Below are positions 3,843 to 64,000 of a stretch of DNA of 64,000 bases, one piece after another. Origin of the DNA: Sphingobacterium micropteri (GTDB lineage: Bacteria > Bacteroidota > Bacteroidia > Sphingobacteriales > Sphingobacteriaceae); assembly GCF_014692515.1 (NCBI RefSeq), contig NZ_JACOIK010000008.1, forward strand, positions 186,001 to 250,000, given 5' to 3'. Made by a program: the position numbers and the translations under genes. The notes beneath the pieces are model-generated. The model saw only the letters and a list, made by a program, of their open reading frames with translations. It was not told the origin of the DNA and searched no databases. The number at the start of each line of letters is the position of its first letter. Positions within the stretch are counted from its first letter, which is position 1.

Positions 3843-3882
3843 GGTATTACATAAGGATTACCATATTTCCTGACGAAGTCAG

Positions 3883-3890
3883 TAATTTTG
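3883..3890 (+). promoter_or_regulatory. TAnnTTTG promoter -7 box for the LLM oxidoreductase
   Basis: TAATTTTG matches the Bacteroidota -7 consensus and ends four bases before the ATG at 3895. Transcription would then begin at or beside the start codon, giving a leaderless mRNA. Confidence 0.55.
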
Positions 3891-3894
3891 TGGT

Positions 3895-4884: not shown

Positions 4885-4950
4885 AGATACGTTCAGTTCA
4901 AAAGCAAAAACGATTTTGCTTTGCTTGAAAAAAACGGTATGTTGGACCAT

Positions 4951-6649: not shown

Positions 6650-6662
6650 ATGTAATATATCT

Positions 6663-8135: not shown

Positions 8136-8194
8136 TATTTATTTCAATTATTATTTCTGTAACAATTATTGTAATTTGCTCGTATTATTATGAA

Positions 8195-8219
8195 AAAACT
8201 TGGGGTAGCCCTAAGTTTT
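8195..8219 (-). terminator. Hairpin with U-tract upstream of proS (possible leader terminator)
   Basis: The arms AAAACTTGGG (8195-8204) and CCCTAAGTTTT (8209-8219) pair with one bulged base and a four-base loop. Read on the minus strand the stem ends in a run of T, like an intrinsic terminator, about 60 bases before the proS start. No minus-strand gene lies immediately upstream, so it may sit in the proS leader. It could also simply separate the two divergent genes. Confidence 0.4.
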
Positions 8220-8224
8220 ATTTA

Positions 8225-8232
8225 TATTTTTG
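8225..8232 (+). promoter_or_regulatory. TAnnTTTG promoter -7 box for the Gly/Tyr-rich lipoprotein
   Basis: TATTTTTG matches the Bacteroidota -7 consensus. The start codon is at 8323, so the leader would be about 85 bases and would contain a small hairpin at 8248-8264 (arms CCCGT and ACGGG, loop of seven). Confidence 0.4.
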
Positions 8233-8322
8233 GAAACGGATTAAACCCCCGTCTAAAAAACGGGTCTAAGATAATAAATAAAGACTGTATTAGCGAAGTT
8301 TAACAGTAGAGGATATTATATC

Positions 8323-9468
8323 ATGAAAACAAATAGATTATTATTCGGTAGTTTGACACTTGCAGCCATTTTTGCGCTGAGCTCGTGTTCAACAAGTAGG
8401 CAGATCGCCCACCGAGACGATGTGTATAATAATCAATCCCAAGCTCCCCAAGATTACCTGAGTCCGGATTATTATTATACTGATGGCGAAGTACAGGAGG
8501 AGCAATATGTCCAAAATGACTATTATGCTGATGAATACGCCGACGAAGAATACGTAGAAGGATTTGAATATGACAATAATCTGGAATATGCGAACCGCAT
8601 TAACCGTTTCTATTACGGTGCACCCGGCATGCCTTATTTCGACCCTTGGTTTGACCCTTGGTATGGATACGGAGGAGGTTTTGGCCTAGGATGGTCTAGC
8701 TGGGGTTGGGGATCAGGTTGGTCTCTAGGATTCGGATGGGGTCGTCCCTCCTTTGGTTTTGGCTGGGGATGGGGAAGTCCTTATTACGGATACGGTAATT
8801 GGGGCTGGGGTGGATACCCTTATGCCGGCTGGGGCTATAACGCCTGGGGACACCCTGGATACGGATATGGAAACCATTATTATGGTGGAAATCGTTATTA
8901 TGGTGGAAACCGATATAGTGTACGGCCAGCCAATGCACCTACCCGTGTTGCCGCTCGCAGTGGATACAATACACGTGTAGGGAATACGACACGTGTTTCC
9001 AACTCACGCGTGGCTCGGGATAGAAACGGTCGTATTGTGACCGGACGCACAACCCGCGCTACAGCAAATGGTACACGCACTACACGTGCTTCGGGAAATA
9101 CAAGCCGCGTACGGACAGAGAACGGAAATGTTACTAGAAATCCTGCTAATAGACCTTCAAACTCTTCCCGTGTCGGTACACGTACACGTGGTGCAACGAC
9201 TAACAGAGAAGCGGTAGGAAACAGATCGAGAACAACCACTCGCCCAACAACGGGTACGAGTAACACATCGCGTTCAAGGACAACCACCCGTCCGACCACG
9301 CAAAGTACTAGACCGACTACTACCCAACCGTCCAGACCGGCTACGCGAAGCACACCTTCGTATTCGCCTTCGAGAGGTTCCTCTGGTGGCTCCATGTCGA
9401 GCGGTGGTGGATCGTCAAGAAGCTCGGGTGGTGGCGGAGGCAGCTCCCGTGGGGGAAGAACAAGATAA
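8323..9468 (+). CDS. Gly/Tyr/Trp-rich and Thr/Arg-rich prolipoprotein
   Basis: The 381-residue product has a lipoprotein signal: a positive N-terminus, a hydrophobic core and the lipobox LSSC with Cys near residue 22, so it should be lipid-anchored in the envelope. An acidic Tyr-rich segment follows (about 45-90), then a long Gly/Trp/Tyr/Phe-rich section (about 105-195) made of short repeats such as WGWG and YGYG. The C-terminal half is Thr/Arg/Ser-rich (many TTR and TRP repeats) and ends in a Gly/Ser run. Comparable low-complexity lipoproteins occur in other Bacteroidota without known function. A structural role at the cell surface is only a guess. A 12-bp palindrome follows the gene. Confidence 0.8.
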   Translation: MKTNRLLFGSLTLAAIFALSSCSTSRQIAHRDDVYNNQSQAPQDYLSPDYYYTDGEVQEEQYVQNDYYADEYADEEYVEGFEYDNNLEYANRINRFYYGAPGMPYFDPWFDPWYGYGGGFGLGWSSWGWGSGWSLGFGWGRPSFGFGWGWGSPYYGYGNWGWGGYPYAGWGYNAWGHPGYGYGNHYYGGNRYYGGNRYSVRPANAPTRVAARSGYNTRVGNTTRVSNSRVARDRNGRIVTGRTTRATANGTRTTRASGNTSRVRTENGNVTRNPANRPSNSSRVGTRTRGATTNREAVGNRSRTTTRPTTGTSNTSRSRTTTRPTTQSTRPTTTQPSRPATRSTPSYSPSRGSSGGSMSSGGGSSRSSGGGGGSSRGGRTR

Positions 9469-9497
9469 TTTTCTCTAACAGATATAATTGACATGAT

Positions 9498-9524
9498 GTA
9501 GAGGCGCAAAACTTGCGTCTCTAC
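9498..9524 (+). repeat. Palindromic hairpin (REP-like unit or terminator)
   Basis: The arms GTAGAGGCGCAA (9498-9509) and TTGCGTCTCTAC (9513-9524) pair over 12 bases with a single G-T wobble and a three-base loop. It lies between the lipoprotein stop and the porin start 15 bases downstream. The compact GTAGAG...CTCTAC form looks like a dispersed palindromic repeat, and it could also end the lipoprotein transcript. Only one copy is seen in this window. Confidence 0.55.
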
Positions 9525-9539
9525 TATTTAAAACAAACT

Positions 9540-11090
9540 ATGCATATAAAAAACATACTACTTACATCTTTATTACTTTCCGGAATAGGTTTTTCCGCTC
9601 ATAGCCAATCTGTAGGCAACGGGTTAATATTTTCGCAAGAAACCAATGGTGGTACCGCGCGATTCAAAGGATTAGGGAATGCAAAAACAGCATTAGGCGG
9701 TGATATCAGTTCCATTACCGGAAATCCTGCTGGATTAGGTTTTTTTGGTCAATCTGATATATCCGTAACGTTCAATTACGACAATGCTGCGAACAAAGGC
9801 AATTACTTTGGAAATAGCGTCAGCAAGAATAAAGGCAGATTTGGTGTGGATCATGCCGGCGTCGTTTTTCACCTTCCAAAAAATGAAGGTTATTATGGAT
9901 GGCAAAATTTCAATATAGGGATAAGCTATGAAAATACCAATAGATTTTCTAATCATGTGCGTTATGAGGGGGTAAATCCCGACAATACCATCATTAGTGC
10001 TTATACGGATGATATAGCACAATTTGGAGATCAAGCACTTACCAACAGTTTATCCGGCATGAGACTTATTGAAAGGTTTGCCGATACCGATAAAGGTTAT
10101 TTCCCGATCACCAACGAGGTTGGGAATAAAGATCAGATCAGTGATATATTGACGACCGGCAACAGTTTCAAGACATCCTTGGCATTTGGCGGTAACTACA
10201 ACAACGTCTTTTATATTGGCGGTAACATCAGCTTTACTTCTTTTATACACGAAAACTCGGCACAGTTCTCCGAATACGGTTGGACGAAAGATGCCGCTGC
10301 AGTAGCCGCGGATAATCCCGGATCCAATTTTATCGATCCAACTCATCCGAATTACGATTTTTTGAAGGCTAATTACGAGATGCTGGACGATTACTACCAA
10401 CGTTCCGAAGGCACTGGAATCGACTTCAAAATTGGTGCTATTTATAAACCTACGGTCGATTGGAACATCGGAGCCACCATTACCTCTCCTACTTGGTATA
10501 CCGTTGATCAATATACGGAAAGTTATATCGGCGTGGATTATTACGATAACGAGAATGCAGAGGAAGCTTTTGATTATGGTGAAACGGAGTTTAGAGACGA
10601 TTTTAGCTATCGCTTGGTTACACCTTGGAAATTTGGCCTTGGCGTATCTAAATTTTTCGGCCGCGGATTGATCTCGGCAGATGCCGAATACGTTAACTAC
10701 GGTAGTATTAAAATTCGGGACACCAGAGGGCCAAATTCATCAGAAGATGCGCTTTGGGACCAAGATTTTAAAGATGCTTACCAAGGAGCCGTTAATCTAC
10801 GTTTAGGCGGTGAATATTTAATTACCAATACCGTCAGCGGACGCGCAGGTGTCAATTATTTCGGTAACCCTTATAAGAACGCTGATAATAAACAGTATAG
10901 CGGTAGCTTGGGTTTAGGCACGAAACTTACAAACACCCTTTATCTTGATCTAGCAGTTGTTCACCTTATTAATGATTATAAAGTAAGTCCGTATCTTCTT
11001 AATGAAGAATTTTGGAACAGCACTAGTCCAGTTGCAGACATCAAACATCAGCGTACAAATGTAGTGTTGACATTGGGGGCTAAGTTTTAA
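9540..11090 (+). CDS. Outer-membrane OmpP1/FadL/TodX-like transport protein
   Basis: From the ATG at 9540 the product is 516 residues with a signal peptide (LLTSLLLSGIGFSAHSQ). A TTG nine codons earlier opens the frame but precedes the natural signal start. The mature N-terminus (NGGTARFKGLGNAKTALGGD, then SSITGNPAGLGFF) is the signature region of FadL-type porins, where Asn-Pro-Ala-Gly is conserved. The rest alternates polar and aromatic residues as in a 14-strand beta-barrel and ends in Phe (LGAKF), as outer-membrane proteins do. FadL relatives let hydrophobic compounds such as fatty acids cross the outer membrane. The substrate is not evident. The LapA-like gene begins 11 bases downstream and probably shares the transcript. 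Confidence 0.85.
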   Translation: MHIKNILLTSLLLSGIGFSAHSQSVGNGLIFSQETNGGTARFKGLGNAKTALGGDISSITGNPAGLGFFGQSDISVTFNYDNAANKGNYFGNSVSKNKGRFGVDHAGVVFHLPKNEGYYGWQNFNIGISYENTNRFSNHVRYEGVNPDNTIISAYTDDIAQFGDQALTNSLSGMRLIERFADTDKGYFPITNEVGNKDQISDILTTGNSFKTSLAFGGNYNNVFYIGGNISFTSFIHENSAQFSEYGWTKDAAAVAADNPGSNFIDPTHPNYDFLKANYEMLDDYYQRSEGTGIDFKIGAIYKPTVDWNIGATITSPTWYTVDQYTESYIGVDYYDNENAEEAFDYGETEFRDDFSYRLVTPWKFGLGVSKFFGRGLISADAEYVNYGSIKIRDTRGPNSSEDALWDQDFKDAYQGAVNLRLGGEYLITNTVSGRAGVNYFGNPYKNADNKQYSGSLGLGTKLTNTLYLDLAVVHLINDYKVSPYLLNEEFWNSTSPVADIKHQRTNVVLTLGAKF

Positions 11091-51337: not shown

Positions 51338-53095
51338 TTAATTTACAATCTCGGTTAACGGCGGCAGATTCTGCTCAGTTCCTGGGTATCCCTCATTTTG
51401 GTTAATGATACCTAGGGTGTTCGTATTAATCGCATCAGCCGGTATCGGAAACAGCACGTGGTAGGGACTAATCCGACACTCGGACGCCCCCCATTTTAAA
51501 TGGGTCTGATAAAAGTTATTCGTGGCCATAACCCGGTCGTACCAAAAATTTTTCTTGCTAAAATCCGCCAACGAGTAGCCATTACGACCTTCGGCTGCCA
51601 TGATATACGAAATCCGGACCAGCTCCGATTTACGATGTTCTTCCGCAAACAACTCTCTGGCGCGCTCGTCAAGGATCGTTTCTATGGTCACATCATCCGC
51701 AGCAATTTCCGCGGCATCGGCCCGTCTTCTTACTTGGTTGATATCTGCCGCAGCCGATTCCATCCTTCCTAACCAATAGTAGGCTTCTGCACGCAACAGA
51801 TAAGTTTCTGCCGAGCGGAACACATAATAATCGCCCTGACCTCCATTCGGCACTTGGTCTGTTGTCGCTTGCGGAACAAAGGTTTTATAAAACGGGAAAG
51901 AATGATAATGCTGGAAGGTATCTACAATTGCCGAAAAGTTTGTTGGGTCTATAGGTTTTCCAAAATCGATTGACGCCGGATTGTTATATAGCAATTCCTC
52001 CTGCAGCACCCAGTTGCCATCCTTCCGCCTTAAGTCATTTTCATCCTTCCACAGATCATAAAGATAATAATTAGAAGGCCTAAGATTCGAATTACCGCGA
52101 CCAAGGGAGTCATAGGTGTCACCTCTATCTAAAGTACCTCTTGCCGCTTTACTGTCCAGAACACGAGCGTTCCACCATGCCGGGTGATAATTGCGCATAG
52201 TATGGAGTCCCCCTGTACGTACTTCATCCGGCAAATCGTTTCTATCCAACACACCAAGGATCGTTTCGGAATTCGCTGCATTATGCACGTTTACCGGGCG
52301 GTGCAAATCCCAGAATAAGTTCCGATGCGGTGCAATTTCTACTTCGGATCCAAACCGTTCCTGCATTAACGGGTGTCTTTCAATGACGTCAGTGGCCATT
52401 TCAATCGCCTGTTCATACGCTCGGTTAGCCAAACATATTTTCGATAACAGATGTTTACCTGCCGACTGGCTTGGTGCCCCCGGCCGCATCTGTTCGGGAA
52501 GCCACTCTACGGCAAATTCCATATCGCTTTGGATACGATCCAAGATCGTCCAGCGCGAATGGGTATAGAAATCCAATTTGGCTTCCAGTAATTCCTTATC
52601 GAGAAAGGGTACATCTCCAAATTGATTGACCAGTAAATAGTACCAGTAAGCACGATGGAAGTATGCTTCGGCCAGTATTTCATTCCGATCCGTTTCATTC
52701 TCCCAGGTAATATCATCAATCCGAGAGATAAGCGCATTCACCACACGTACCGGCCGGTACGCCCACTGGAAATTATCCAGAACGTAATAATTTCCATCGG
52801 CATTTGGAGTCAGCTGCAGGTTCATATTCCGTATACCGTTGTCATTGAGTGGTCCTGCTACCCCTAGCTCCGTAAAGATAGATTCCGATACCACGGTATT
52901 GAGTTCACCGTAAAACGAATTTCGAAGGTTCTTGCGTGCGGTAACCAACATAGACTCGTATCCAGCCTTATTTATGAGTAGGTTTTCCGGTGCATAAAAG
53001 GAGAGCGGCTCTGGTTTCAACCATTCCTTGGAGCAGGAAAAAACAGCCAACATGCTTACAGCTACGACTAAACTATATATAATTTTTATTCTCAT
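51338..53095 (-). CDS. SusD/RagB-like glycan-binding lipoprotein (locus C)
   Basis: The 585-residue product is longer than the other two SusD proteins. It has a lipobox FSC (Cys near residue 21) and SusD marks: NKAGYESMLVTARKNLRN, AEAYFHRAYWYYLLVNQFGDVPFLDKEL (about 142-170), RSAETYLLRAEAYYWLGRM and a C-terminal FPIPADAINTNTLGIINQNEGYPG. It should form the surface lid of the SusC encoded 21 bases upstream. The sulfatase gene follows 10 bases downstream, so it is the fourth gene of a sigma-fecR-susC-susD-sulfatase unit. The extra length lies mostly in mid-protein loops. Confidence 0.93.
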   Translation of the reverse strand: MRIKIIYSLVVAVSMLAVFSCSKEWLKPEPLSFYAPENLLINKAGYESMLVTARKNLRNSFYGELNTVVSESIFTELGVAGPLNDNGIRNMNLQLTPNADGNYYVLDNFQWAYRPVRVVNALISRIDDITWENETDRNEILAEAYFHRAYWYYLLVNQFGDVPFLDKELLEAKLDFYTHSRWTILDRIQSDMEFAVEWLPEQMRPGAPSQSAGKHLLSKICLANRAYEQAIEMATDVIERHPLMQERFGSEVEIAPHRNLFWDLHRPVNVHNAANSETILGVLDRNDLPDEVRTGGLHTMRNYHPAWWNARVLDSKAARGTLDRGDTYDSLGRGNSNLRPSNYYLYDLWKDENDLRRKDGNWVLQEELLYNNPASIDFGKPIDPTNFSAIVDTFQHYHSFPFYKTFVPQATTDQVPNGGQGDYYVFRSAETYLLRAEAYYWLGRMESAAADINQVRRRADAAEIAADDVTIETILDERARELFAEEHRKSELVRISYIMAAEGRNGYSLADFSKKNFWYDRVMATNNFYQTHLKWGASECRISPYHVLFPIPADAINTNTLGIINQNEGYPGTEQNLPPLTEIVN

Positions 53096-53116
53096 TTCAT
53101 CAATTATTAAGGTAAA

Positions 53117-56100
53117 CTAAAACGATGCATTGAACCCGATGGTAAAGATCCGTGGCATTGGACTATTCTGAGATTCGGGATCCCAGCCAGTCCATTTTGT
53201 TAAGGTGAGCAAATTTCGTGCACTCAAAAAGAGCCGAAGGTTATTTACTGAAACTTTGTCCAGTACATCTTTCGGTAAACGGTAACCGATCGCGACATCC
53301 TGCAGTCTCAAAAAACTACGTGACTCATACATATTGATCCCCCCCTCAAACAATCGGTAATTTACATTAAGTCGAGGGTGTGTATTCGATCTATTTTCGG
53401 GCGTCCAATACGGGATATCCAAGGTATTTGCCCGGTCATAGATATTCGAACTTGAGTGGTTAAAATCATCGCGCGACCCTAGGTGACCGAGGTCAGCCCT
53501 TATGAAAATGTTTGCATCAAAGTGCTTCCAGAAACTGAAATCATTCCGCCAGCCCAGTGTATACCGAGGCTGACGCCAACCGATAAATTGTTTATCGTCA
53601 AATTGCCGGTATGCGCCATCCGCGTTACTATCTTCCACACGATATTCGCCCGGGCGTAGGCCATACTGGGCTGCTGCTTCGGTCTCCTCAACCTGCCATA
53701 TCCCCTGTATCCGGTAATCCCAGATTCTGTCTAAGGCCTCTCCCGGAAAATATCCATTTGCATAATCTGGAACCTCCCGCTGCACAAGCTGTCCATTGAC
53801 CTCTTCTTCCATCATATCCCCCCAAAGGCGATCGATACGATTACGGTTTAACGAGAAAACGAAACTACTCCTCCAATTCAAGTTTTCTTTTTTTATAATC
53901 TGTCCCTGTACGGTGGCATTTATACCTCTATTGGAAAGTTCGCCGAGATTTGTCGTGACCGATTCATAGCCGATAATCCGCGGTAACCTCCGATCCAATA
54001 AGAGATCATAGGTCGTCCCTTTGTAGGCATCTATTGTCGCAGTAAGCTTATTGTCAAAAGCGGTGAGGTCGAATCCTATGTTGTAGGCCTCCGTTCCCTC
54101 CCATTTCAGATTGGGATTGGCCATCGAGCTATTTGTTAGCCCCACTACCACGTTCGAACCATCAAAATATGCGTTGCGCGCGAGGTTAGAAAGCGCCGCG
54201 TATCCGGGCACATCTCTGTTTCCGTTCACCCCCCAAGAGACACGCATCTTTAGGTCATTTACCCAGGCGACATCAAAAAAACGCTCCTGAGACAATCTCC
54301 ACGCAAAAGCTGCGGACGGAAAGAACCCTCTCGGGTTATTTTGGCCAAACGCAGAAAACCCATCCCTACGCCAAGACAAGGTAAACAGATAACGTTCATC
54401 GTAATTGTAATTCATACGTGCCATCAAGGCATCTCCCGTACGCACCCTATCATTGTTACTGATAGAGGGATTCGCCCCATATTGCAGACCATGCCAAGAA
54501 AGATTTTCATTGGGACCAAAATTTTCATTTTCCTGAAAAGACTGCTGTATCTGTAATTTTTCCGCATTAACCAAAAAAGTAAAGTCGAATGCGTGCTTAT
54601 CGAAACGTTGCGACCAAGTTAAGATATTATCGACCATCCATTCATAGGAGTGTTCATCAGACCGCGTACCATATCCATTACGGCGCGTCACACCCCCCAT
54701 CATCGTTGTAGAAGGCCAAAAATTATAGTCTTTTTCCGTCACCAAGCGGTTTTGGAAAGATGCACGATATTTAATACCGAAAGGCAGTTTCAATTCTGCA
54801 TAGAACGTTGCAAACAAGCGATTATTTTTTCGATACTGATCCTTATAATAGGACTCTAAGAAAGCGTTGGAAAAAGAAGGGTCTTCCTGGGGAAACCTAA
54901 CTAGCATACCATCATCCTCCATAAATTTACCGTAAGGGCTAAGTCTGTTTATTCCTCCGGCAGGCACAGAGCTGTTGTCGGAAGTTGCAAACTGCGTATT
55001 TACTCCGATTTTAAAAAAATCAGCAACATCCCCTTCCAGGTTTAAACGCGTCCGCCAGGTCTTGAGCCTGTCGCCATAGATGATTCCTTCATTATCGGTA
55101 TATCCGGTAGATAGGTAATAGTTCAGGCGGGATGCCTTTCCAGACAGTGCAATGTCATTGTTGTGGCGGAGCCCCTGCTGCATCCGCTTATCGTACCAGT
55201 CGATTACCCGCCCTTGTTGGAAACCTTCAATCTCTACACTGTTCAGACGTAATCTTTTTAGCCATTCCACTATATTATCCGCATCGGCATTATTACTGTA
55301 ATTCCGCCATTGTTCTAACGACACATTTTCCGGCAATTGTTCTGGATTCATATAATAACCTTCGGCATCACGTGGTGCCATCTGCTGCATAAGATCCTGT
55401 CTAAACCTTAAATACCCTGCAGCATCGAAAGGTTTATAATCGTTGGATACGGATGCCAGTCCCCACATGGACGAAAGCGTTACGGTAGGCACCTCGCTAA
55501 CGCCACGTTTCGTGGTCACTATGATTACCCCTGAGGCAGCGCGTGCACCGTAAACGGCGGCCGAACTGGCATCTTGCAGGACGTCCATCGTAGCTATATC
55601 AAACGGATTGATATCCTGCAACGCTCCGTTGTAGATAACGCCGTCCAACACAATCAACGGACTCGAACCCGCAGTGATGGAGTTGGCTCCCCTCACCTCT
55701 AACGACCCTCCACCTCCTGCTCCGGTAGCCTGATTACTGGCAATACCTGCCACCGTCCCGCTTAGGAACTCGCTCAGGTTTGTAGCCGACTGGCTTTCGA
55801 AATCACGCGCATCCACACGGGAGATTGCACCGGTTAAATCGCTTCTTTTCTGCGTACCGTATCCGATCACGACAGCTTCTTCCAAGTCGTTCATAGCGGT
55901 TTTCATAGCAATTTCCAAACTAGAACGCCCCTTCAGCTCCACTTCCTGCGTTTCATACCCTACCAGCGTAAACACTAAGATTCTTGCCTCGGCGGGCAAA
56001 TCAAGGCTGAAATTCCCATCACCATCAGTTTTCGTCGCAGTAGCATAATTCTTCACCGATATTGTTGCACCCTCCAAAGGCAACCTATTTTCATCGGTTA

Positions 56101-56539
56101 CCTTTCCCTTCATATGGCTTTGAGCTGGTTGATCCCAGAAATCAGGAAGAGCAACCTCTCGTTTGTCGGAGATAGTTGTTTTTACTTTACGACGTACGAG
56201 CACCGTCCGGTTACGAATGGCATAGTCAAGCGGCTGACCCTTAAAACATACCGATAAGGCATGTTCTAGACTAGCATTCTGCAAATTTACCGTTACCGGA
56301 CGTGCCTTTTTTAAGTCTTGGTCCGCATAGATAAAATCCACACCAGTTTGTTCACTTAGCAATTTTACGACATCTCTCAGCGCAGCATTTTGTTTGCTTA
56401 TATTAATTTGGGCACGTGATTCCGCAGAAACCTGTAGAATCAGAAAGGTTAAAAAGAACACTGTTATCCGCATCGCTTTCCATATAGTATGATCATTCCG
56501 CTTGTGATAGCCGAATGTCTTATTATAGTTTATAATCAT
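53117..56539 (-). CDS. SusC/RagA-like TonB-dependent transporter with STN domain (locus C)
   Basis: The 1,140-residue product has a signal region (ITVFFLTFLILQVSAESRA), then an STN domain (about 45-125; LRDVVKLLSEQTGVDFIYADQDLKK) that should signal to the FecR-like protein. It continues with a carboxypeptidase-D regulatory-like domain, VVIGYGTQKRSDLTGAISRV, the plug with DASSAAVYGARAASGVIIVTTK, and the barrel ending in Phe (FNASF). The start at 56539 is the first ATG; a shorter one at 56473 precedes the signal core more closely. Imports a glycan across the outer membrane with TonB energy. Confidence 0.93.
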   Translation of the reverse strand: MIINYNKTFGYHKRNDHTIWKAMRITVFFLTFLILQVSAESRAQINISKQNAALRDVVKLLSEQTGVDFIYADQDLKKARPVTVNLQNASLEHALSVCFKGQPLDYAIRNRTVLVRRKVKTTISDKREVALPDFWDQPAQSHMKGKVTDENRLPLEGATISVKNYATATKTDGDGNFSLDLPAEARILVFTLVGYETQEVELKGRSSLEIAMKTAMNDLEEAVVIGYGTQKRSDLTGAISRVDARDFESQSATNLSEFLSGTVAGIASNQATGAGGGGSLEVRGANSITAGSSPLIVLDGVIYNGALQDINPFDIATMDVLQDASSAAVYGARAASGVIIVTTKRGVSEVPTVTLSSMWGLASVSNDYKPFDAAGYLRFRQDLMQQMAPRDAEGYYMNPEQLPENVSLEQWRNYSNNADADNIVEWLKRLRLNSVEIEGFQQGRVIDWYDKRMQQGLRHNNDIALSGKASRLNYYLSTGYTDNEGIIYGDRLKTWRTRLNLEGDVADFFKIGVNTQFATSDNSSVPAGGINRLSPYGKFMEDDGMLVRFPQEDPSFSNAFLESYYKDQYRKNNRLFATFYAELKLPFGIKYRASFQNRLVTEKDYNFWPSTTMMGGVTRRNGYGTRSDEHSYEWMVDNILTWSQRFDKHAFDFTFLVNAEKLQIQQSFQENENFGPNENLSWHGLQYGANPSISNNDRVRTGDALMARMNYNYDERYLFTLSWRRDGFSAFGQNNPRGFFPSAAFAWRLSQERFFDVAWVNDLKMRVSWGVNGNRDVPGYAALSNLARNAYFDGSNVVVGLTNSSMANPNLKWEGTEAYNIGFDLTAFDNKLTATIDAYKGTTYDLLLDRRLPRIIGYESVTTNLGELSNRGINATVQGQIIKKENLNWRSSFVFSLNRNRIDRLWGDMMEEEVNGQLVQREVPDYANGYFPGEALDRIWDYRIQGIWQVEETEAAAQYGLRPGEYRVEDSNADGAYRQFDDKQFIGWRQPRYTLGWRNDFSFWKHFDANIFIRADLGHLGSRDDFNHSSSNIYDRANTLDIPYWTPENRSNTHPRLNVNYRLFEGGINMYESRSFLRLQDVAIGYRLPKDVLDKVSVNNLRLFLSARNLLTLTKWTGWDPESQNSPMPRIFTIGFNASF

Positions 56540-56604
56540 TAACTTTGTTTGTTTGGTTATTCTTCAATTATTTAGACGATAAATAAAGGAACGATCAAAT
56601 ATTC

Positions 56605-56638
56605 AGACGGAAGGGGTCTCAAGCACTTCCGTCTTTTT
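56605..56638. terminator. Hairpin between fecR and susC of locus C
   Basis: The arms AGACGGAAG (56605-56613) and CTTCCGTCT (56626-56634) form a perfect 9-bp stem. A T-run follows on the plus strand (56634-56638), so a U-tract exists only in the direction opposite to the operon. It lies in the 123-base gap after fecR, just as in locus B. Confidence 0.6.
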
Positions 56639-56662
56639 GTGGTTCCCTACACAAGCTAGCTT

Positions 56663-57805
56663 TTACATCACCTTCACCCTCCTTCCCTCAATCTCAAACC
56701 GGACCGCCTGTGTATAGCTAATCTTATCCAAAATTTCAGATATATGCTCATACCGGCCTACGGAACCGGTGAAGGTGACCAACGATGCATCACCTTGGTA
56801 AATAATCTCTACGTCGTACCAACGCGCTAACATTTTTAATATATTTTCCAGAGGTTCCTGTTCAAATACGAACTTACCATCTTTCCATGCCGTAAACTGC
56901 CTGACATCAACTGTACTTATCTTGAGATCTTCTCCCTGTAAGACACTCTGCTGTCCAGGTTTGAGCACATGATATTTTATTTCGTTTTCATCTATCATAT
57001 CATGCAGAAACACATTAACGCTCCCCTCAATCAACGTAGTAAGTGTCTTATGATCATCCGTATACGCTGAGATATTAAATTGGGTACCGAGAACGTCAAC
57101 AATCTGCGCACCTGCCTGCACGCGAAAGGGTACCTTATGAGAAAGGCCATTTTGATCCCGTAACACCATTTTTGCGACATCAAAATAAGCTTCCCCTTCC
57201 AAGAACACCCGACGTTCTTGCTTACCAAAATGTACAGGATATCGTAGGGATGATCCGGCATTTAACCAAACGCGTGTACCATCAGGCAGTGTAAGCGCAT
57301 ACTGTCCGCCGCGAGGAGTCCTTAAGGTCAACATCTGTCCGGCGATTCCGGAACTAACAACCTCTCCGTCCTCATACTTTATCGAATCGCCGATCACAAT
57401 ACCTTTGTGCAGATCACTCAGGATAATTTCCTTTCCGCTCTCCAACACGAGCGTCGCCGTATTTCGGCCCGGTACAATACTATCCTGCTGTATTGCTACA
57501 TGATTCTGCTCAAGAGAAGTTGGTGTGTATAAGAAGACGAACAAACCCACTATTACGGCTGCTGCAGCCACATAATACCAATATAGATCAAATCGACGTG
57601 ACGGTCTGTTTTGTGTAATCCGACTGTCTATCTCCCGTTTTATCCTGTCCTTTAGCCTGCTCCGATCATCTTCGTTTAGCTGCCGTAGGACGTCTTTATC
57701 CTTGTCAAATAATCTGTAGTAGACATCCACAAACTGCCGTTCCTCTTCAGAGGCTGTACCGTTTCGATATTTTTCAACAAGTTCTAAAAAAGTTTCCCTA
57801 TCCAT
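56663..57805 (-). CDS. FecR-like anti-sigma factor (locus C)
   Basis: The 380-residue protein has a cytoplasmic N-terminus (about 1-70), one membrane helix (YYVAAAAVIVGLFVFLYTP, about 75-95) and a periplasmic FecR domain with TPRGGQYALTLPDGTRVWLNAGSSLRYP, LEGEAYFDVAK and VDVLGTQFNISAYT. The C-terminal part (LENILKMLARWYDVEIIYQ) matches the usual signalling domain. It should restrain the locus C sigma factor until SusC transmits a signal. It lies about 140 bases after the sigma gene. Confidence 0.93.
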   Translation of the reverse strand: MDRETFLELVEKYRNGTASEEERQFVDVYYRLFDKDKDVLRQLNEDDRSRLKDRIKREIDSRITQNRPSRRFDLYWYYVAAAAVIVGLFVFLYTPTSLEQNHVAIQQDSIVPGRNTATLVLESGKEIILSDLHKGIVIGDSIKYEDGEVVSSGIAGQMLTLRTPRGGQYALTLPDGTRVWLNAGSSLRYPVHFGKQERRVFLEGEAYFDVAKMVLRDQNGLSHKVPFRVQAGAQIVDVLGTQFNISAYTDDHKTLTTLIEGSVNVFLHDMIDENEIKYHVLKPGQQSVLQGEDLKISTVDVRQFTAWKDGKFVFEQEPLENILKMLARWYDVEIIYQGDASLVTFTGSVGRYEHISEILDKISYTQAVRFEIEGRRVKVM

Positions 57806-57945
57806 GATTAGCGAGGTTTACACTAATAAGACAGCATAGGTTGGCATTTTCCCGAAAAAAATTTCAATTTTTCAAATTGACAACATAAAAATCTAAATAT
57901 CAGTAAATTAAAATAATAACTAAAGAAAACCTGTTGATAGCTAAA

Positions 57946-58512
57946 TCAGAAAAGCTTGGTCAGGACGAGCAACACTATCAATGATGCACGCAGTTGTGCC
58001 AGTGCTAAACTTAATTGGTTTTGAACAGTTTTCCTGTTCATTTTTAACTTTTTGGCAATTTCCGCCGTGTCCAACTCCTGCTCATACCGCATCCTATAAA
58101 TTACTTGCTGTCTAGCGCTCAAAGAATTAACAAGTGCTTCTGCCACGACGACCAATTCCTTATCCAACAATGGGGTATCGCTGGATTCGGTAACCGCCTG
58201 ATATTCTATTAAAAGTTCGGCTATAGGCACATAGCGTTTTTCCTTCTCAAACCAGTTGAGCACCCTATTCTTAACCGCAGTATAAAGATATCCTCGAACA
58301 TTTTCGATACATAATTCTTCCATTTGGTCCCACAGGGTGACGAAAATATCCTGGGTAATATTCTCCGCTATGTCGTATTGACGACAGCGTATGAACGCCT
58401 GCTCAAAGACGTACTCCCAATGCTCTTCATACAGCGCCGTAAAGACCTGCTCATCCTGAGTTTGCGAGCGAGATAATAAATTTGATGTCGTGTGAGATTT
58501 ATAATCGGCCAT
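57946..58512 (-). CDS. ECF RNA polymerase sigma factor (FecI-like, locus C)
   Basis: The 188-residue protein has region 2 (EEHWEYVFEQAFIRCRQYDIAENITQDIFVTLWDQ, about 28-62) and region 4 (LSARQQVIYRMRYEQELDTAEIAKKLKMNRKTVQNQLSLALAQLR, about 130-175), the two regions of ECF sigma factors. It ends in a hydrophobic tail (LIVLLVLTKLF), similar to the locus B sigma. It should be controlled by the FecR-like protein encoded next and direct transcription of susC-susD-sulfatase. A TAnnTTTG box upstream on the same strand suggests that its own gene is read by the housekeeping sigma. Confidence 0.92.
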   Translation of the reverse strand: MADYKSHTTSNLLSRSQTQDEQVFTALYEEHWEYVFEQAFIRCRQYDIAENITQDIFVTLWDQMEELCIENVRGYLYTAVKNRVLNWFEKEKRYVPIAELLIEYQAVTESSDTPLLDKELVVVAEALVNSLSARQQVIYRMRYEQELDTAEIAKKLKMNRKTVQNQLSLALAQLRASLIVLLVLTKLF

Positions 58513-58893
58513 AAGTTGTATGCCATGTTATGCACACAAACTTAAAAAATAATTTGATACTTTAATAATATGCAACTCTTTCCTTATTTTGAAGTCGTTG
58601 CCCTCCTATTTAGGAAAAAATCAACCATACCGATATACCAAATGATATGACCGCGCTTCAACACCTCAAAGACAATAATCGATGTAGTAGAGCTGTGTTC
58701 TTCCTTGTGAGTCTGGTTGATCAAAAATGTTATCGTCATATTTAATATTAACATCTACAAATACCTGAAGAGCATCCGTATAAACCACATATTTTTTACA
58801 CATACTACCCATAAACATGTCCTTCATGCTTTACGGCATTTTTTTTGGAGGTGGCCTAAGAACAAAACTCAATAAACTTAGGGAATTCAGATT
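58513..58893. other. Divergent intergenic region (381 bp) before the SbnA-like operon
   Basis: No gene is seen. The left side holds the promoter of the locus C sigma gene. Near the right end GCCTAAG (58854-58860) and CTTAGGG (58877-58883) form a 7-bp hairpin 11 bases before the ATG of the SbnA-like gene. No clear TAnnTTTG box with good spacing was found for that operon. Confidence 0.5.
58537..58544 (-). promoter_or_regulatory. TAnnTTTG promoter -7 box for the locus C sigma gene
   Basis: On the minus strand this reads TAAGTTTG, 24 bases before the ATG at 58512. Confidence 0.45.
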
Positions 58894-59871
58894 ATGAGGT
58901 TATTAAACAAGGAAAATATCATGGCTACCTTAGAACGGGGGGTCGGAAATACGCCATTGCTCAAACTGGAGTCCTTATCCGCCACGCTAGACATCCAAAT
59001 CTATGCGAAGATGGAAATGGGGAATCCAAGTGGCAGTGTCAAAGATCGGTCAGCCACCAACATCCTGATCGAGGCGATCCGAAAGGGCGAGATAAATGCG
59101 GAGACCACTATTGTTGAGTCTTCGTCCGGAAATATGGGTATTGCCTTGGCCCGACTCTGCAAGCTGCTGCGGTTAGACTCCTATATTGTTGTCGACCCTT
59201 ACATTAACCATCATACCAAGAAATTACTACGTAGTTACGGCGCAAACTTGGTAGAGGTAAATGAAAAAGATGAAAATCAAGGTTACCTCCGCAACCGGTT
59301 AAAAAAAGTACAAGAACTTTTGGAAACTGTACCAAATAGCTACTGGACAAACCAATATGGAAACCCCAACGTACGGATGGCACACGAAAATATATTTCGC
59401 GAACTTCTCGTCCAACTTGGAACAGCCCCAGACTACATGCTAGTAGCAACCAGTACGTGTGGTACTATCCGCGGCATCGGCGATGCCATTGCGAAGACAG
59501 AGTCGCAAACACGGCTGATCGCGGTCGACGCCGAAGGCAGTATCCTTTTTGAAAACAACCCCAAACCCAGGCACATTCCGGGAATGGGCGCTAGCCACCC
59601 ATCCTCCTTTCTACAAAAACACCAGATCGACCACTATACACTTATCTCCGATCATCAAGCGATTCAGGGATGTCATTTGATCCGGGAGCACGAAGGCATG
59701 TTAATCGGTGGCTCCTCCGGTGCGCTCGTCGCCGCATTACATAAACTTAAAGACCGCATTCCGGCAAACGCCACGGTGGCTTTACTCTTCCCAGATAGTG
59801 GCGAGCGCTATCTTGATACGATCTACGACGACATGTGGGTACATAAGACTTTTGAGAAAGTAATCGCATGA
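58894..59871 (+). CDS. SbnA-like PLP-dependent synthase (cysteine synthase fold)
   Basis: The 325-residue protein has the fold-type II PLP layout of cysteine synthase. Lys50 in NPSGSVKDRSA is the PLP Lys. The substrate loop reads SSSGNMGIALARL rather than TSGNTG of CysK, a mark of SbnA-type enzymes, which join O-phosphoserine and glutamate to make N-(1-amino-1-carboxyl-2-ethyl)-glutamate, the precursor of 2,3-diaminopropionate. Later marks are ATSTCGTIRGIGDAI and MLIGGSSGALVAAL. Its stop overlaps the start of the FAD/NAD(P)-binding gene by four bases (ATGA), showing translational coupling. The substrate remains a prediction; a simple cysteine-synthase activity is the alternative. Confidence 0.85.
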   Translation: MRLLNKENIMATLERGVGNTPLLKLESLSATLDIQIYAKMEMGNPSGSVKDRSATNILIEAIRKGEINAETTIVESSSGNMGIALARLCKLLRLDSYIVVDPYINHHTKKLLRSYGANLVEVNEKDENQGYLRNRLKKVQELLETVPNSYWTNQYGNPNVRMAHENIFRELLVQLGTAPDYMLVATSTCGTIRGIGDAIAKTESQTRLIAVDAEGSILFENNPKPRHIPGMGASHPSSFLQKHQIDHYTLISDHQAIQGCHLIREHEGMLIGGSSGALVAALHKLKDRIPANATVALLFPDSGERYLDTIYDDMWVHKTFEKVIA

Positions 59872-61613
59872 TCTGGACAACCGAACATATTACGCCGGAA
59901 CCGGACCTGTATTCGTATGTCCAAGCGCGAAAACCAGAAACTTCGCCTACGCCCGAAAGCCGTATGATCGCCATCATGGGTGGCGGTCCTAAGGGGATGT
60001 ATGCGCTGAATCATTTTGTCAATCAAACTCGCCTCGATCCAACTACAAAACACTATCAAGTTTTGTGGTTTAATCAGGACGAACGCTTTGCTTGTGGACC
60101 GAATTACGACATACATCAACCTAATTATCTGTTGATCAACTATTGTATAGGACATGTACACGCCTTTCATCCGGCATATCGGGACATCGAAAACCAAAGA
60201 AGCTTTGTAGATTGGCTGACTGCTGTAAAGATTGTCGACACAGTTATCGAGCCGACCGATTTTGCCTCGAGGGCTTTGGTGGGCCATTATCTACAGTGGG
60301 TCGCTGCAGAGACGATCCGTAACCTTCCGTCGAATGTACACGTAGAGCTTATCCCACGGCCTGTCATCACGATGACCTATAAGGATACCCAAGTAGCAAT
60401 CGAAACTAAAACCAAGACTTGGGAGGTCGATAGCGTGTTACTTACTACAGGTCATTGTTACCAAAACAGTCCGTTAATTGAACACACGGAGATCCCCACA
60501 GCAATGTATAAGCGTGCGCCCTATCCCGTCTCACAGTTCGCCACGATCCCGCCACAAGCGCAGGTTGGTATCATCGGCATAGGTTTAACCTTTATCGATA
60601 TTGCATTGGCGCTTACCGAAGGCCGTGGCGGCACGTTTGAACAGGGCACCTATCATCGCTCCGGAAAAGAACCTGTAATTTATCCCTTTTCGAGAAGTTC
60701 ACTTCCCATATTGTGCCGCGGCGCACAATATCAGGAGCAACGCCCGTTATATATCTTGACCGAATCGCAGTTTAAGAAATGGATGCGCCAATCAGCAAAA
60801 ATCGATTTCCTAAAGGAAATACTCCCCTTAATCGAAGAAGAAGTGCAACTGGCTTATTACACCGTGGCGTTTGACGTAACAGATCTTGAAACGATACGGA
60901 ATATGATAGCACACATACCCGTATCCGAGCGCTTTATGCTAAACAATTTGTTACGACCAGCGTTAAACAACGAAGAAGAAATTATCCAGTATATACGGAC
61001 GAACATTGATGAAGCCTATAAAGGCGAAGAAAAAAGTCCGCTGATGGCAGCCGCAGCCGTTTGGAGTCGAATCTGTTCCCAGATCGCTGAGGTATATCGG
61101 ACTGTAGGTTTTACGGGTGCCTCTCAGCAGCAATTGGATCAATACTATTTTAGCGCCTTCAACCGTGTGAGTTACGGTCCTCCCATAGCGAACATGGAAA
61201 AAATATATGCGTTAGCGAAAGCGGGCATCCTCCGCTTTATGGCGTTTCAAAATCCAGTGATTAGCTGGCACTCTGACGAGCAGTTGTTTTCCCTCCGTGA
61301 CGCCAACGGAAAGGAAAAACAATTAGATATCTTAATTGACGCGCGCATCGCTCGCCCCGCCCTCGAAAAAAGAAACGCCGTACTATATGATAACCTGTTG
61401 CAGAAGGGATCTATCCATGCATACGAGAATGAAGGGTATTCCCCAGGTAGCCTGTCTATTGATAAACGTGGAAAATGTACCACGATGGAAAGTCTACCCG
61501 TTTACTGTTACGGATCGAATACCGAAGGTGTGTTTTTCGATAACGACACCTTATCACGAACAAAAAATGATACCGCCTGTTATTGGGTACAGGAGACACT
61601 TCGCCAAATGTAG
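59868..61613 (+). CDS. FAD/NAD(P)-binding protein, lysine/ornithine monooxygenase-like or oxidoreductase
   Basis: The 581-residue protein has an N-terminal dinucleotide motif AIMGGGPKGMYAL (about 35-47) and a second Rossmann motif GIIGIGLTFIDIALAL (about 234-249) after the LLTTGH motif (191-196), as in flavoproteins with separate FAD and NAD(P) sites. The type corresponds to the FAD-NAD(P)-binding group of uncharacterised proteins (GGGPKG instead of GxGxxG). No signal peptide is present, so it is cytoplasmic. Its position between an SbnA-like synthase and a PLP decarboxylase-like gene suggests that it oxidises an intermediate, perhaps replacing SbnB, or hydroxylates an amine. That is inference. 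It overlaps the upstream gene by four bases. Confidence 0.85.
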   Translation: MIWTTEHITPEPDLYSYVQARKPETSPTPESRMIAIMGGGPKGMYALNHFVNQTRLDPTTKHYQVLWFNQDERFACGPNYDIHQPNYLLINYCIGHVHAFHPAYRDIENQRSFVDWLTAVKIVDTVIEPTDFASRALVGHYLQWVAAETIRNLPSNVHVELIPRPVITMTYKDTQVAIETKTKTWEVDSVLLTTGHCYQNSPLIEHTEIPTAMYKRAPYPVSQFATIPPQAQVGIIGIGLTFIDIALALTEGRGGTFEQGTYHRSGKEPVIYPFSRSSLPILCRGAQYQEQRPLYILTESQFKKWMRQSAKIDFLKEILPLIEEEVQLAYYTVAFDVTDLETIRNMIAHIPVSERFMLNNLLRPALNNEEEIIQYIRTNIDEAYKGEEKSPLMAAAAVWSRICSQIAEVYRTVGFTGASQQQLDQYYFSAFNRVSYGPPIANMEKIYALAKAGILRFMAFQNPVISWHSDEQLFSLRDANGKEKQLDILIDARIARPALEKRNAVLYDNLLQKGSIHAYENEGYSPGSLSIDKRGKCTTMESLPVYCYGSNTEGVFFDNDTLSRTKNDTACYWVQETLRQM

Positions 61614-61623
61614 AAAGAACTTT

Positions 61624-63000
61624 ATGGACAACACATTTTTACCACTAACACCCATCCTACACCGTTGGGTGCAAGATATTATAGAACAACCCACGTCTTT
61701 GTTCCAAGCGATCGAACGGCAAGGATCGCCTATAAACATACACCATCTAGCACCATTGAAAGAAAACATCAAAGCCTATGAAAAGGTACTAACCAAATAC
61801 CAGATCCCCCACAAAATATTCTTTGCACGCAAAGCCAATAAATGCTTGGAAATAGCCCGAGCTGTAGCACAGATGGGTCAAGGAGTAGATACCGCAAGTT
61901 ACCGCGAACTCCAGCAATGCGTCGAGGCCGGAATAGATAGCCAACAACTTGTGCTTACCGCTGCGGTTAAAAACAAGAAACTTCTTGAACTTGCCCTGCA
62001 GCATAACATCCCTGTGGTATTGGATAACGAGGATGAACTGCAGCTGGCGCAAGAGGTTGCACAAAAAAAGGAGAAAACCATGATAGTAAACATTCGCGTG
62101 GGCGGCTTTTTCGTGGAGGACAAGCGTTTACCCACGCGCTTCGGCTTTCCCATCGATCACGCAGTCGCCTATATCCGTGGTTTAGCAGATAAATATCCCC
62201 ATCTCGAATACACCGGTTTACACTTCCATCTAAATGGTTATTCTGTCACGGAGCGTGTGGCAGCCATCGAGCAATCGGTACGCGTCATCGACGAACTATT
62301 GCATCATGGCATCCCGACGCGGTCGCTCGACATTGGTGGCGGTATGCTGATGAATTACCTACGATCAGAACAAGAATGGCTCGAATTCCATGACGCGCTA
62401 CGTGAAGCTGTATTGGGCGTCCGATCCGAACTTACCTATCAGAATGACGCGCTCGGTATGGTCAAGATCAACGACCAGCTCTATGGTGAACCCACGGTAT
62501 ACCCCTACTTCAATAAACTGCACAAGGAGAAACTATTGGAAGAGATTCTAACCACGCGATCTGCTATCTTCGACGCGCCGATCCATCAACTGTTTACCGA
62601 GCGCGCCTTAGCGTTTCGCATGGAGCCTGGCCGATCGCTGCTGGATCAGGTGGGCTGCACGGTGGCTAAAGTTGCCTTCCGTAAAAAAGATAGCGAAGGC
62701 CGTCTGCTAGTAGGCCTAGAAATGAACCGCACCCAGCTCCGGAGTTCCAGTGCCGATTTTTTGGTAGATCCCATCCATCTGCCCAAACGGCAAAGCCAGA
62801 AGACCGATGATCCGTGCTACGCCTATCTTGTCGGGAGCTATTGTCTGGAACAGGAATTGATCCTTAAACGAAAAGTTTACCTAAAATCGTATCCGGAAAT
62901 CGGCGATTTGATTCTATTTCCCAATACTGCCGGATATCTGATGCATTTTTACGAATCAGAAGCACATCTGTTCGAACTTGCCAAAAACATATTCGTTTAA
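61624..63000 (+). CDS. Class III PLP-dependent decarboxylase-like protein (Y4yA type)
   Basis: From the ATG at 61624 the product is 458 residues; the frame is open further upstream but only inside the preceding gene. It has the alanine-racemase-like barrel: PLP Lys70 in FFARKANKCLEIA, LHFHLNGYS (about 200-208), SLDIGGGM and MEPGRSLLDQVG for phosphate binding, and a beta-domain with GSYCLEQELIL, whose Cys fits the active-site Cys of diaminopimelate and related decarboxylases. Relatives include SbnH, which decarboxylates the diaminopropionate part of staphyloferrin B, and the uncharacterised Y4yA group; the HFHLNGYS variation fits the latter. It is the last gene of the operon. Confidence 0.85.
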   Translation: MDNTFLPLTPILHRWVQDIIEQPTSLFQAIERQGSPINIHHLAPLKENIKAYEKVLTKYQIPHKIFFARKANKCLEIARAVAQMGQGVDTASYRELQQCVEAGIDSQQLVLTAAVKNKKLLELALQHNIPVVLDNEDELQLAQEVAQKKEKTMIVNIRVGGFFVEDKRLPTRFGFPIDHAVAYIRGLADKYPHLEYTGLHFHLNGYSVTERVAAIEQSVRVIDELLHHGIPTRSLDIGGGMLMNYLRSEQEWLEFHDALREAVLGVRSELTYQNDALGMVKINDQLYGEPTVYPYFNKLHKEKLLEEILTTRSAIFDAPIHQLFTERALAFRMEPGRSLLDQVGCTVAKVAFRKKDSEGRLLVGLEMNRTQLRSSSADFLVDPIHLPKRQSQKTDDPCYAYLVGSYCLEQELILKRKVYLKSYPEIGDLILFPNTAGYLMHFYESEAHLFELAKNIFV

Positions 63001-63052
63001 CGGAGATGATAATAGCCGTTTCCAGCAAGGACAACCTGATTAAGAGACAAAG

Positions 63053-63946
63053 CTAGAGCATGAAAAAAGTCTTAGGCTTGAGGGGTTCAGGAATTTCTGT
63101 TTCTTTCAGCAACTGTTTAATATTAATCTCGATATTACGCGCTATGGCAGTTACAGGCGTATCACTGGGCCGATTACGGAAAGGATCTTGTAGGTTGTAG
63201 GCGGTTTTATCAGCAAGAAAAAACAAAGCGGCGATAAGCACCAACAGCGGAATTTCAAAAATCGCGTGGACATCTTGTATCGCAATCGATAACGTAATCA
63301 AAAAGAGATAAATAGCTGCATGCAGAAAAAAACGATACGTTACTGGAAATACCGTAGTATTTATACGTTCTGCTTTGCCCATCGAATCCACAAGACGCAC
63401 GAGCGTCTGATCCAGCTGCACCCGATAAAATTCGGGGATTGGTTGCTTATCTGCAACTTCTTTTATACGGGTTGCCTGCATCTGGGTTATGGCTAACGCC
63501 ACATTTTTATGAGGTCGAAGCATCTCCCGTTCCGCCGACGTAAGGTTGAGTTGCCTAGCCAATGGATTCAGCCCCCGTAGAGAATCACCTAAGGCGTAAC
63601 ACCACGCGATCTGTTTATAAGCGATGTCCCGAATCACTTCTTCGTATGCACTGTCCATATAGCTTTGAAGTTGTATGACGAGCGAACGGGAATCGTTTAC
63701 AATAGCGCCCCATATTTTGCGTGCCTCCCACCACCGTTCATACGACTGGCTCATCTTAAACGACAGTAACACCGATATCGCGGTACCTAAAAATGCAGGA
63801 ACACCCAAAGGCATATCTGGAAGCCGATCATTCATAAAATACGTAAAGGCATTAAAAAATAAGCCGACAACAGCCACTATAGCCACTTCCCTTTTTATTT
63901 TGTTAAGCATGTAACGTAAGGGAATCCGAGAAGAGTTCAGTATCAT
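63053..63946 (-). CDS. Bestrophin-like (YneE/UPF0187) chloride-channel-type membrane protein
   Basis: The 297-residue protein has the bestrophin plan: early hydrophobic helices (VAIVAVVGLFFNAFTYF), the motif LGVPAFLGTAISVLLSFKMSQSYERWWEARKIWGAIVNDSR (about 42-82) with conserved Arg and Trp residues, then mid-helical cytoplasmic part and two more helices (about 205-245), ending with IPLLVLIAALFFLADKTAYNLQDPF. Bacterial bestrophins form pentameric anion or cation channels. It converges with the SbnA-like operon at a gap of 52 bases and has no evident functional link to it. The start at 63946 is preferred, with an alternative at 63910. Confidence 0.92.
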   Translation of the reverse strand: MILNSSRIPLRYMLNKIKREVAIVAVVGLFFNAFTYFMNDRLPDMPLGVPAFLGTAISVLLSFKMSQSYERWWEARKIWGAIVNDSRSLVIQLQSYMDSAYEEVIRDIAYKQIAWCYALGDSLRGLNPLARQLNLTSAEREMLRPHKNVALAITQMQATRIKEVADKQPIPEFYRVQLDQTLVRLVDSMGKAERINTTVFPVTYRFFLHAAIYLFLITLSIAIQDVHAIFEIPLLVLIAALFFLADKTAYNLQDPFRNRPSDTPVTAIARNIEINIKQLLKETEIPEPLKPKTFFML

Positions 63947-64000
63947 ACTCTGATGAACAAATATCTTTTGAATGTGTTTGTACGACGAAGAAAAAAATCC

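Follow-up and report, generated by a model that had tools for sequence, protein, structure and literature searches.

Three adjacent genes at positions 58894 to 63000 of a 64,000-nucleotide stretch of Sphingobacterium micropteri DNA (hereafter the window; contig NZ_JACOIK010000008.1, positions 186,001 to 250,000) form a conserved unit that recurs in nine bacterial phyla. They encode an SbnA-like synthase, a flavoprotein and a Y4yA-type protein, and we tentatively assign them, with close to an even chance of being right, to one dedicated pathway: an SbnA-type condensation would be followed by an N-oxygenation in the place otherwise taken by SbnB and by a decarboxylation through Y4yA, to give a small N-oxygenated two-carbon diamine or an adduct of it. 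This assignment builds on the unit itself, its gene order, gene fusions, the flavoprotein fold and conserved residues as read from sequence, from which we infer substrates, step order, product and role. A literature search, which did not reach most subscription papers, found no paper on the combination of these three proteins. The genes are arranged as follows.

58894-59871, + strand: SbnA-like pyridoxal phosphate (PLP) fold-type II synthase, 325 aa (PF00291, E 1.7e-63)
59868-61613, + strand: predicted FzmM-fold flavin N-oxygenase (FMO), 581 aa (PF13454, E 2.7e-24)
61624-63000, + strand: predicted Y4yA-type PLP fold-type III decarboxylase, 458 aa (PF02784, E 3.5e-29)

The tight packing noted in a preliminary description of the window was confirmed along with its coordinates: the SbnA-like and flavoprotein open reading frames (ORFs) overlap by four bases, and ten bases separate the flavoprotein stop codon (TAG, 61611-61613) from the Y4yA ATG at 61624. 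The ORF list also holds a longer, mechanically assigned Y4yA frame with a TTG start at 61336.

Conservation and co-inheritance of the trio

Named genomes were scanned with an alignment of trio flavoproteins, and the best 80 of 140 relatives were kept; since the query was built from such proteins, this sample is biased toward them. The flavoprotein gene is flanked in 73 of the 80 loci by an SbnA homologue immediately before it and a Y4yA homologue immediately after it, all three on one strand. One locus (L093) has only the SbnA homologue beside the flavoprotein, and neither partner is present in six, namely four from Sphingobacterium (L085, L086, L092 and L120) and those from Lentzea and Gluconacetobacter. 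The 73 trios belong to Bacteroidota, Balneolota, Verrucomicrobiota, Kiritimatiellota, Planctomycetota, Gemmatimonadota, Chloroflexota, Pseudomonadota and Actinomycetota, with Verrucomicrobiota, Gemmatimonadota and Chloroflexota represented by metagenome-assembled genomes (MAGs) only. The preliminary description had suspected a widespread, uncharacterised unit and had proposed searching other genomes for the trio, with lack of conservation as the outcome that would speak against it. No such lack was seen; conservation is stronger than its author could know, and the class of the flavoprotein can now be named.

A second sample was drawn with Y4yA as the query, which matched at E 1e-60 or better in 10 of 395 genomes of the window's phylum. 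The flavoprotein lies directly upstream in eight of these, including the window's own genome and one other (G038), both already known. Of the remaining two loci, L160 is on a cut contig and L159 has an adjoining SbnA homologue; no flavoprotein was found in the stretch examined around the Y4yA gene of L159. A survey of the family covered 201 genomes. Flavoprotein matches at E 0.001 occurred in 38 of them, and in 20 the match was strong (E 1e-60 or better): 12 of these are trios, and eight are genes without partners in the fetched flanks. The eight lone genes are loci L061-L068 (genomes G178, G127, G096, G064, G160, G083, G016 and G147, respectively); in L064-L067 the chromosomal neighbours are the same ones that bound a whole trio in L058 and L060. 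The lone Sphingobacterium flavoproteins branch within the trio group of the tree, which suggests that SbnA and Y4yA were lost later.

The three genes also share their history. Patristic distances in the SbnA, FMO and Y4yA trees of 71 loci correlated with r = 0.866 (SbnA-FMO), 0.837 (SbnA-Y4yA) and 0.866 (FMO-Y4yA), and 999 permutations gave no value above 0.171, 0.214 and 0.250, respectively. In seven loci (L105, L107, L108, L113, L114, L117 and L131), moreover, one open frame of 915-952 aa encodes both SbnA and FMO. Six of these fusions form one clade of the FMO tree and the seventh, from Gracilimonas (L131), is placed elsewhere, so the fusion probably arose twice. Such fusions suggest that both enzymes work together, and they are silent on which of the two acts first.

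Two loci deviate in detail. In a Verrucomicrobiales MAG (L127, 3915-6975) the flavoprotein is preceded by two SbnA homologues. On plasmid pTpau01 of Tsukamurella paurometabola (L045, 6388-7908) the flavoprotein frame is unannotated, and all that the record lists between SbnA and Y4yA is a hypothetical protein of 239 aa; the frame was recovered by profile search (E 6.9e-72).

Predicted activities of the three enzymes

The first protein scores 365 bits against the SbnA model TIGR03945 (cut-off 349.95), has SbnA (5d84, E 1e-69) as its closest relative in the PDB, and aligns with Staphylococcus aureus SbnA across almost the full length. According to the available part of PMC12414870, S. aureus SbnA converts O-phosphoserine and glutamate to N-(2-amino-2-carboxyethyl)-glutamate (ACEGA), and its residues Arg132, Tyr152 and Ser185 underlie the selectivity for O-phosphoserine. 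K50, S78, R135, Q154, Y155 and S187 of the window protein match K47, S75, R132, Q151, Y152 and S185 of SbnA; the first five are kept in all 71 trio loci counted and S187 in 69. The positions of Tyr152 and Ser185 are occupied by Ser and Gly in Y4xP of Rhizobium NGR234, and by His and Gly in a Rhizobium rhizogenes homologue. The SbnA-type assignment made in the preliminary description is upheld by the model score and the retained O-phosphoserine residues, and the enzyme is predicted to condense O-phosphoserine with an amino acid.

For the flavoprotein, a PDB sequence search with E values up to 1 returned a single relative (8CP2/8CP5, E 2e-34), the L-aspartate N-hydroxylase of Streptomyces sp. 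V2 that the PDB title names FzmM. An AlphaFold model built from 48 sequences (mean predicted local distance difference test score, pLDDT, 92.3) led Foldseek to the same structures, with query-normalised template modelling (TM) scores of 0.80-0.82; the other chains among the 50 matches listed, headed by SidA-type hydroxylases, scored 0.50 or less. Sequence and modelled fold alike place the protein in a group with FzmM and would make an N-oxygenated product likelier than the plain diamine or diamino acid first proposed for the trio.

The accessible text on the FzmM crystal structure (PMC10404684) names residues that bind aspartate or sulfate, reports that the N413E exchange abolished hydroxylation, and gives C4a-hydroperoxyflavin as the oxidant of this enzyme class. 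Their equivalents were counted in an alignment of 85 proteins with 72 trio rows (FzmM numbering). The glycine of the FAD motif (G9) and the catalytic Asn62 (N91 in the window protein) are present in all 72 rows, and at position 266 there are 59 rows with Arg and 13 with Lys. Sixty-four rows retain Arg577, 50 Arg409, 12 Arg276 and five Arg13, position 13 being Lys in the other 67. Arg412 of the sulfate site is kept in one row, and Asn413 of the entry chamber and Arg416 in two each, which makes aspartate an unlikely substrate. At positions 13, 276, 409, 412, 413, 416 and 577 the window protein has Lys, Arg, Ser, Cys, Ser, Ala and Arg. The aspartate entry chamber of FzmM (R13, R276, N413, R416 and R577) is thus not retained as a set in the trio, and on these residues a strict aspartate N-hydroxylase identity was rejected. 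A partner of the nitrosuccinate lyase type (CreD/FzmL) was sought with one probe in the flanks of the 80 loci, with zero matches. In the FMO tree, nine other relatives are separated from the trio group by a fully supported branch. One further FzmM-related flavoprotein is encoded on Staphylococcus epidermidis plasmid pML7049-5 (L039, 3679-13049) among LeuA-, LeuC- and LeuD-like genes, in a run that also contains a TauD-type dioxygenase, a cupin and an aminotransferase.

In Y4yA, the PLP lysine, the HxH, GGG and EPGR motifs and a C-terminal cysteine are invariant across 35 aligned rows. K70, H202, R337, C407, E409 and Y438 are found in all 71 trio loci; among the single positions counted there, only E334 varies (70 of 71). 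Y4yA therefore retains the residues of a decarboxylase and is predicted to act as one. The fold search with its model (pLDDT 90.9; residues 441-448 modelled poorly) retrieved mostly diaminopimelate and D-ornithine/D-lysine decarboxylases as nearest structures. The first SbnH chain appeared only at rank 40, so that the earlier comparison with SbnH finds no particular support and membership of that group was discarded. Residue 441 is His in all 71 trio loci and in the Tsukamurella and Sulfitobacter plasmids, and Asp in all 11 loci that yielded no FMO; in four of these (L046, L159, L161 and L162) a middle enzyme was not recognised within the stretch examined. His441 as opposed to Asp441 is a hint of a different Y4yA substrate, and would fit one in which the second nitrogen has ceased to be a plain ammonium group.

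Proposed pathway, related operons and alternatives

In the proposed pathway, the SbnA-like enzyme would join O-phospho-L-serine to an amino acid, most likely glutamate, to give an N-(2-amino-2-carboxyethyl)-amino acid such as ACEGA. The FMO, predicted to be an NADPH- and O2-dependent enzyme of FzmM fold, might then oxygenate the secondary nitrogen of this product via C4a-hydroperoxyflavin. A single oxidation would yield an N-hydroxy opine, and a double oxidation a nitrone, whose hydrolysis could release an N-hydroxydiamino acid of the 2,3-diaminopropionate type and a keto acid. Removal of a carboxylate by Y4yA would leave the small N-oxygenated two-carbon diamine or adduct, probably used within the cell, perhaps under stress. 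If correct, this would add a third way of processing the SbnA product to those of SbnB and the opine dehydrogenase of the y4xO type, and it would predict a non-aspartate substrate for a fold whose solved member is aspartate-specific. It would also allow flavoproteins that at present bear the label FAD/NAD(P)-binding protein to be named after their function.

Comparison with other Y4yA operons places the flavoprotein in the slot of a dehydrogenase. That it replaces SbnB, as first suggested, agrees with its middle position in the 73 trios and with tblastn searches (E 1e-6) in which two SbnB probes and y4xO-type probes gave no match in the flanks of the 80 loci, to which the search for SbnB was confined. 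An SbnB-like or y4xO-type gene stands beside SbnA and Y4yA in seven of the 11 FMO-less Y4yA loci examined. Rhizobium NGR234, Bradyrhizobium and Sinorhizobium meliloti combine Y4yA and an SbnA-family protein with an octopine/nopaline dehydrogenase family protein, an IucA/IucC-type synthetase for nonribosomal peptide synthetase-independent siderophores (NIS) and an MFS transporter. Mycobacterium avium plasmid pMAH135, Aureimonas, Agrobacterium vitis and a Rhizobium rhizogenes Ti plasmid instead have an SbnB-like gene of the ornithine cyclodeaminase family, with an additional MATE gene in the first three. The order SbnA-SbnB-Y4yA on pMAH135 is that of the window, with SbnB in the place of the FMO.

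The trio differs from each of the systems that it resembles. With staphyloferrin B synthesis in S. aureus (sbnA, sbnB, sbnH) it shares the SbnA-type synthase, the identical O-phosphoserine residues and a PLP fold-type III decarboxylase, but its flanks hold neither SbnB nor a NIS synthetase nor any probed transporter, the FzmM-fold flavoprotein is present instead, and its Y4yA is only distantly SbnH-like. The FzmM/CreE L-aspartate N-hydroxylases (8CP2) have the same fold, FAD-motif glycine and catalytic Asn, whereas R412, N413 and R416 are mostly lost in trio FMOs, whose partners are SbnA and Y4yA. The NGR234 operon (y4yB-y4yA-y4xP-y4xO-y4xN-y4xM) was named in the preliminary description as a parallel. 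This is right in so far as y4yA adjoins the SbnA-family gene y4xP, but the operon is a different version with the opine-dehydrogenase family gene y4xO, a NIS synthetase, an MFS transporter and Asp at Y4yA position 441. The SbnA-SbnB-Y4yA-MATE modules of M. avium, Aureimonas and A. vitis have the three-enzyme core and no NIS gene in the stretch seen, but an SbnB-like protein for the FMO, a MATE gene and, in two of them, iron ABC (ATP-binding cassette) transporter genes. In these two, the plasmids of Aureimonas (L163) and A. vitis (L166), SbnB-Y4yA-SbnA-MATE lies next to the iron genes, perhaps as an unrecognised type of metallophore module. Finally, the alanosine pathway of Streptomyces, in the part of PMC7347517 consulted, unites a diaminopropionate unit with a CreE-type enzyme, AlnM, which works with AlnN to give nitrite; the trio has no visible AlnN-like lyase, and its FMO is tied to SbnA.

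Several observations weigh against the proposed pathway. The comparison over R412 to R416 depends on an alignment of about 24% identity. Some acid-binding groups remain, the window FMO having Arg at R276 and R577 and Lys for R13, and most rows keeping R577; the loss of the other residues might also reflect a substrate that carries fewer carboxylates than ACEGA. Since the trio Y4yA proteins may be one clade, His441 may be a single inherited change that is irrelevant to the substrate. A further same-strand ORF of at least 80 aa lies close by in 33 of the 73 trio loci (none in 40), so more genes may belong to the pathway in some genomes. The lone Sphingobacterium FMOs, four in the named-genome sample and eight in the family survey, may have another use, because the best SbnA-family matches anywhere in those eight genomes reach at most 35% identity; two trio genomes searched alongside also hold such paralogues. 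The lone FMO of L120 has lost the catalytic Asn. Deefgea, lastly, carries SbnA, SbnB and an FzmM-related FMO together, and this FMO retains R412 and R416; on its plasmid (Deefgea piscis, L042, 3457-7894) the three stand in one run with ThrH, possibly a pathway that N-oxygenates diaminopropionate itself.

SbnB oxidises ACEGA to L-2,3-diaminopropionate (L-Dap) and 2-oxoglutarate, and the FMO might be a plain substitute for it, its N-oxygenation merely cleaving ACEGA to the same products, from which Y4yA would make ethylenediamine. The shared slot in M. avium and the SbnA-FMO fusions are compatible with this account. We nevertheless regard it as unlikely, as Y4yA residue 441 differs between the FMO trios and the SbnB and opine-dehydrogenase types and an O2-using N-oxygenase would be a costly route to a dehydrogenation. 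It is also conceivable that the FMO acts first, making a hydroxylamine-type nucleophile from an amino acid for SbnA to add to the aminoacrylate, much as O-ureidoserine synthase adds hydroxyurea in cycloserine synthesis. O-ureido-L-serine synthase (3x43) does occur among the PDB relatives of the SbnA-like protein, and the fusions would suit either order of steps. However, SbnA itself is by far the closer relative (E 1e-69 versus 1e-31) and the SbnA-type selectivity residues are conserved, which renders this order of events quite improbable. Least credible by a wide measure is that the first gene encodes a plain cysteine synthase with unrelated neighbours, although the part of PMC3973906 consulted reports Y4xP of Sinorhizobium as a cysteine synthase: linkage is conserved, the trees are congruent, fusions exist, and the two O-phosphoserine positions that are Ser and Gly in Y4xP are Tyr and Ser in the trio proteins. 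A plain cysteine synthase is disfavoured on these grounds.

A metallophore as the product would bring the trio into line with the SbnB- and y4xO-type Y4yA operons with iron transporters, which probably make one. Related operons adjoin iron ABC transporter genes or a gene for a TonB-dependent siderophore receptor, and in the window and some other Sphingobacterium loci FecI-FecR-type and TonB-receptor-like genes lie beside the trio; this proximity is taken as a local feature. The absence of a NIS synthetase stated in the preliminary description was borne out: IucA/IucC had no match in the whole genome of the window, in a search whose control was positive in 2 of 14 cases, and probes (E 1e-6) for NIS synthetases, y4xM-type MFS and MATE had no match in the flanks of the 80 loci, other exporter types not being probed. 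Together with the different set of recurring neighbours (DUF421 proteins and long catalases, see below), these results make a metallophore very unlikely, and a siderophore was set aside as the principal interpretation on the outcome of the NIS, MATE and y4xM-type probes, which left out other exporter types.

Recurrent neighbours and surroundings of the locus

Neighbours that recur in distant genera are DUF421 membrane proteins (11 of 80 loci) and long catalases (6 of 80); when 288 neighbour proteins from 40 of these loci were scanned against Pfam, the same 11 DUF421 proteins and five catalases came out. Across 148 genomes of the phylum we counted 37 DUF421 places and 14 long-catalase frames (>700 aa). 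Given this background, 40 loci should have less than one such neighbour by chance, even if each genome held two copies, according to an estimate of our own that draws on a single phylum, without matched random loci or counts from other phyla. The catalase cases of Sphingobacterium rhinopitheci and Kaistella haifensis (L074 and L075, about 3825-10300) are not independent, as both trios and catalases are closely similar, which suggests horizontal transfer. In the window's genome the DUF421 and long-catalase genes are on contigs other than that of the trio.

A stress role of the trio is therefore a lead, not a result. A more far-reaching version of the proposed pathway, rather doubtful as a whole, is that in all nine phyla an FzmM-fold N-oxygenase of a new substrate class acts on an opine-like secondary amine, to give a novel N-oxygenated derivative of diaminopropionate or ethylenediamine that serves as an intracellular general-stress protectant, as the adjoining DUF421 and long-catalase genes might indicate, and not as a metallophore. 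Should the connection with stress prove right, a small molecule so far unrecognised would be common to many environmental bacteria.

Upstream of the trio lies one further feature:

58513-58893, strand not assigned: intergenic region, divergent from an ECF-type (extracytoplasmic function) sigma factor gene

An Rfam scan of 56000-64000 gave zero families at the gathering threshold. Five Sphingobacterium upstream regions, when aligned, showed conserved blocks close to the start codon, in which inspection by eye recognised no regulator site. On the opposite strand just upstream (51338-58512), the ECF-type sigma factor gene is followed by FecR and then by TonB-dependent-receptor-like and SusD-like genes, the latter two names being assigned by eye; downstream, a bestrophin-like gene occupies 63053-63946 on the - strand. 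The genome measures 4.85 Mb and contains eight PALP matches, and the closest named relatives at the trio locus are Sphingobacterium corticibacterium and S. phlebotomi.

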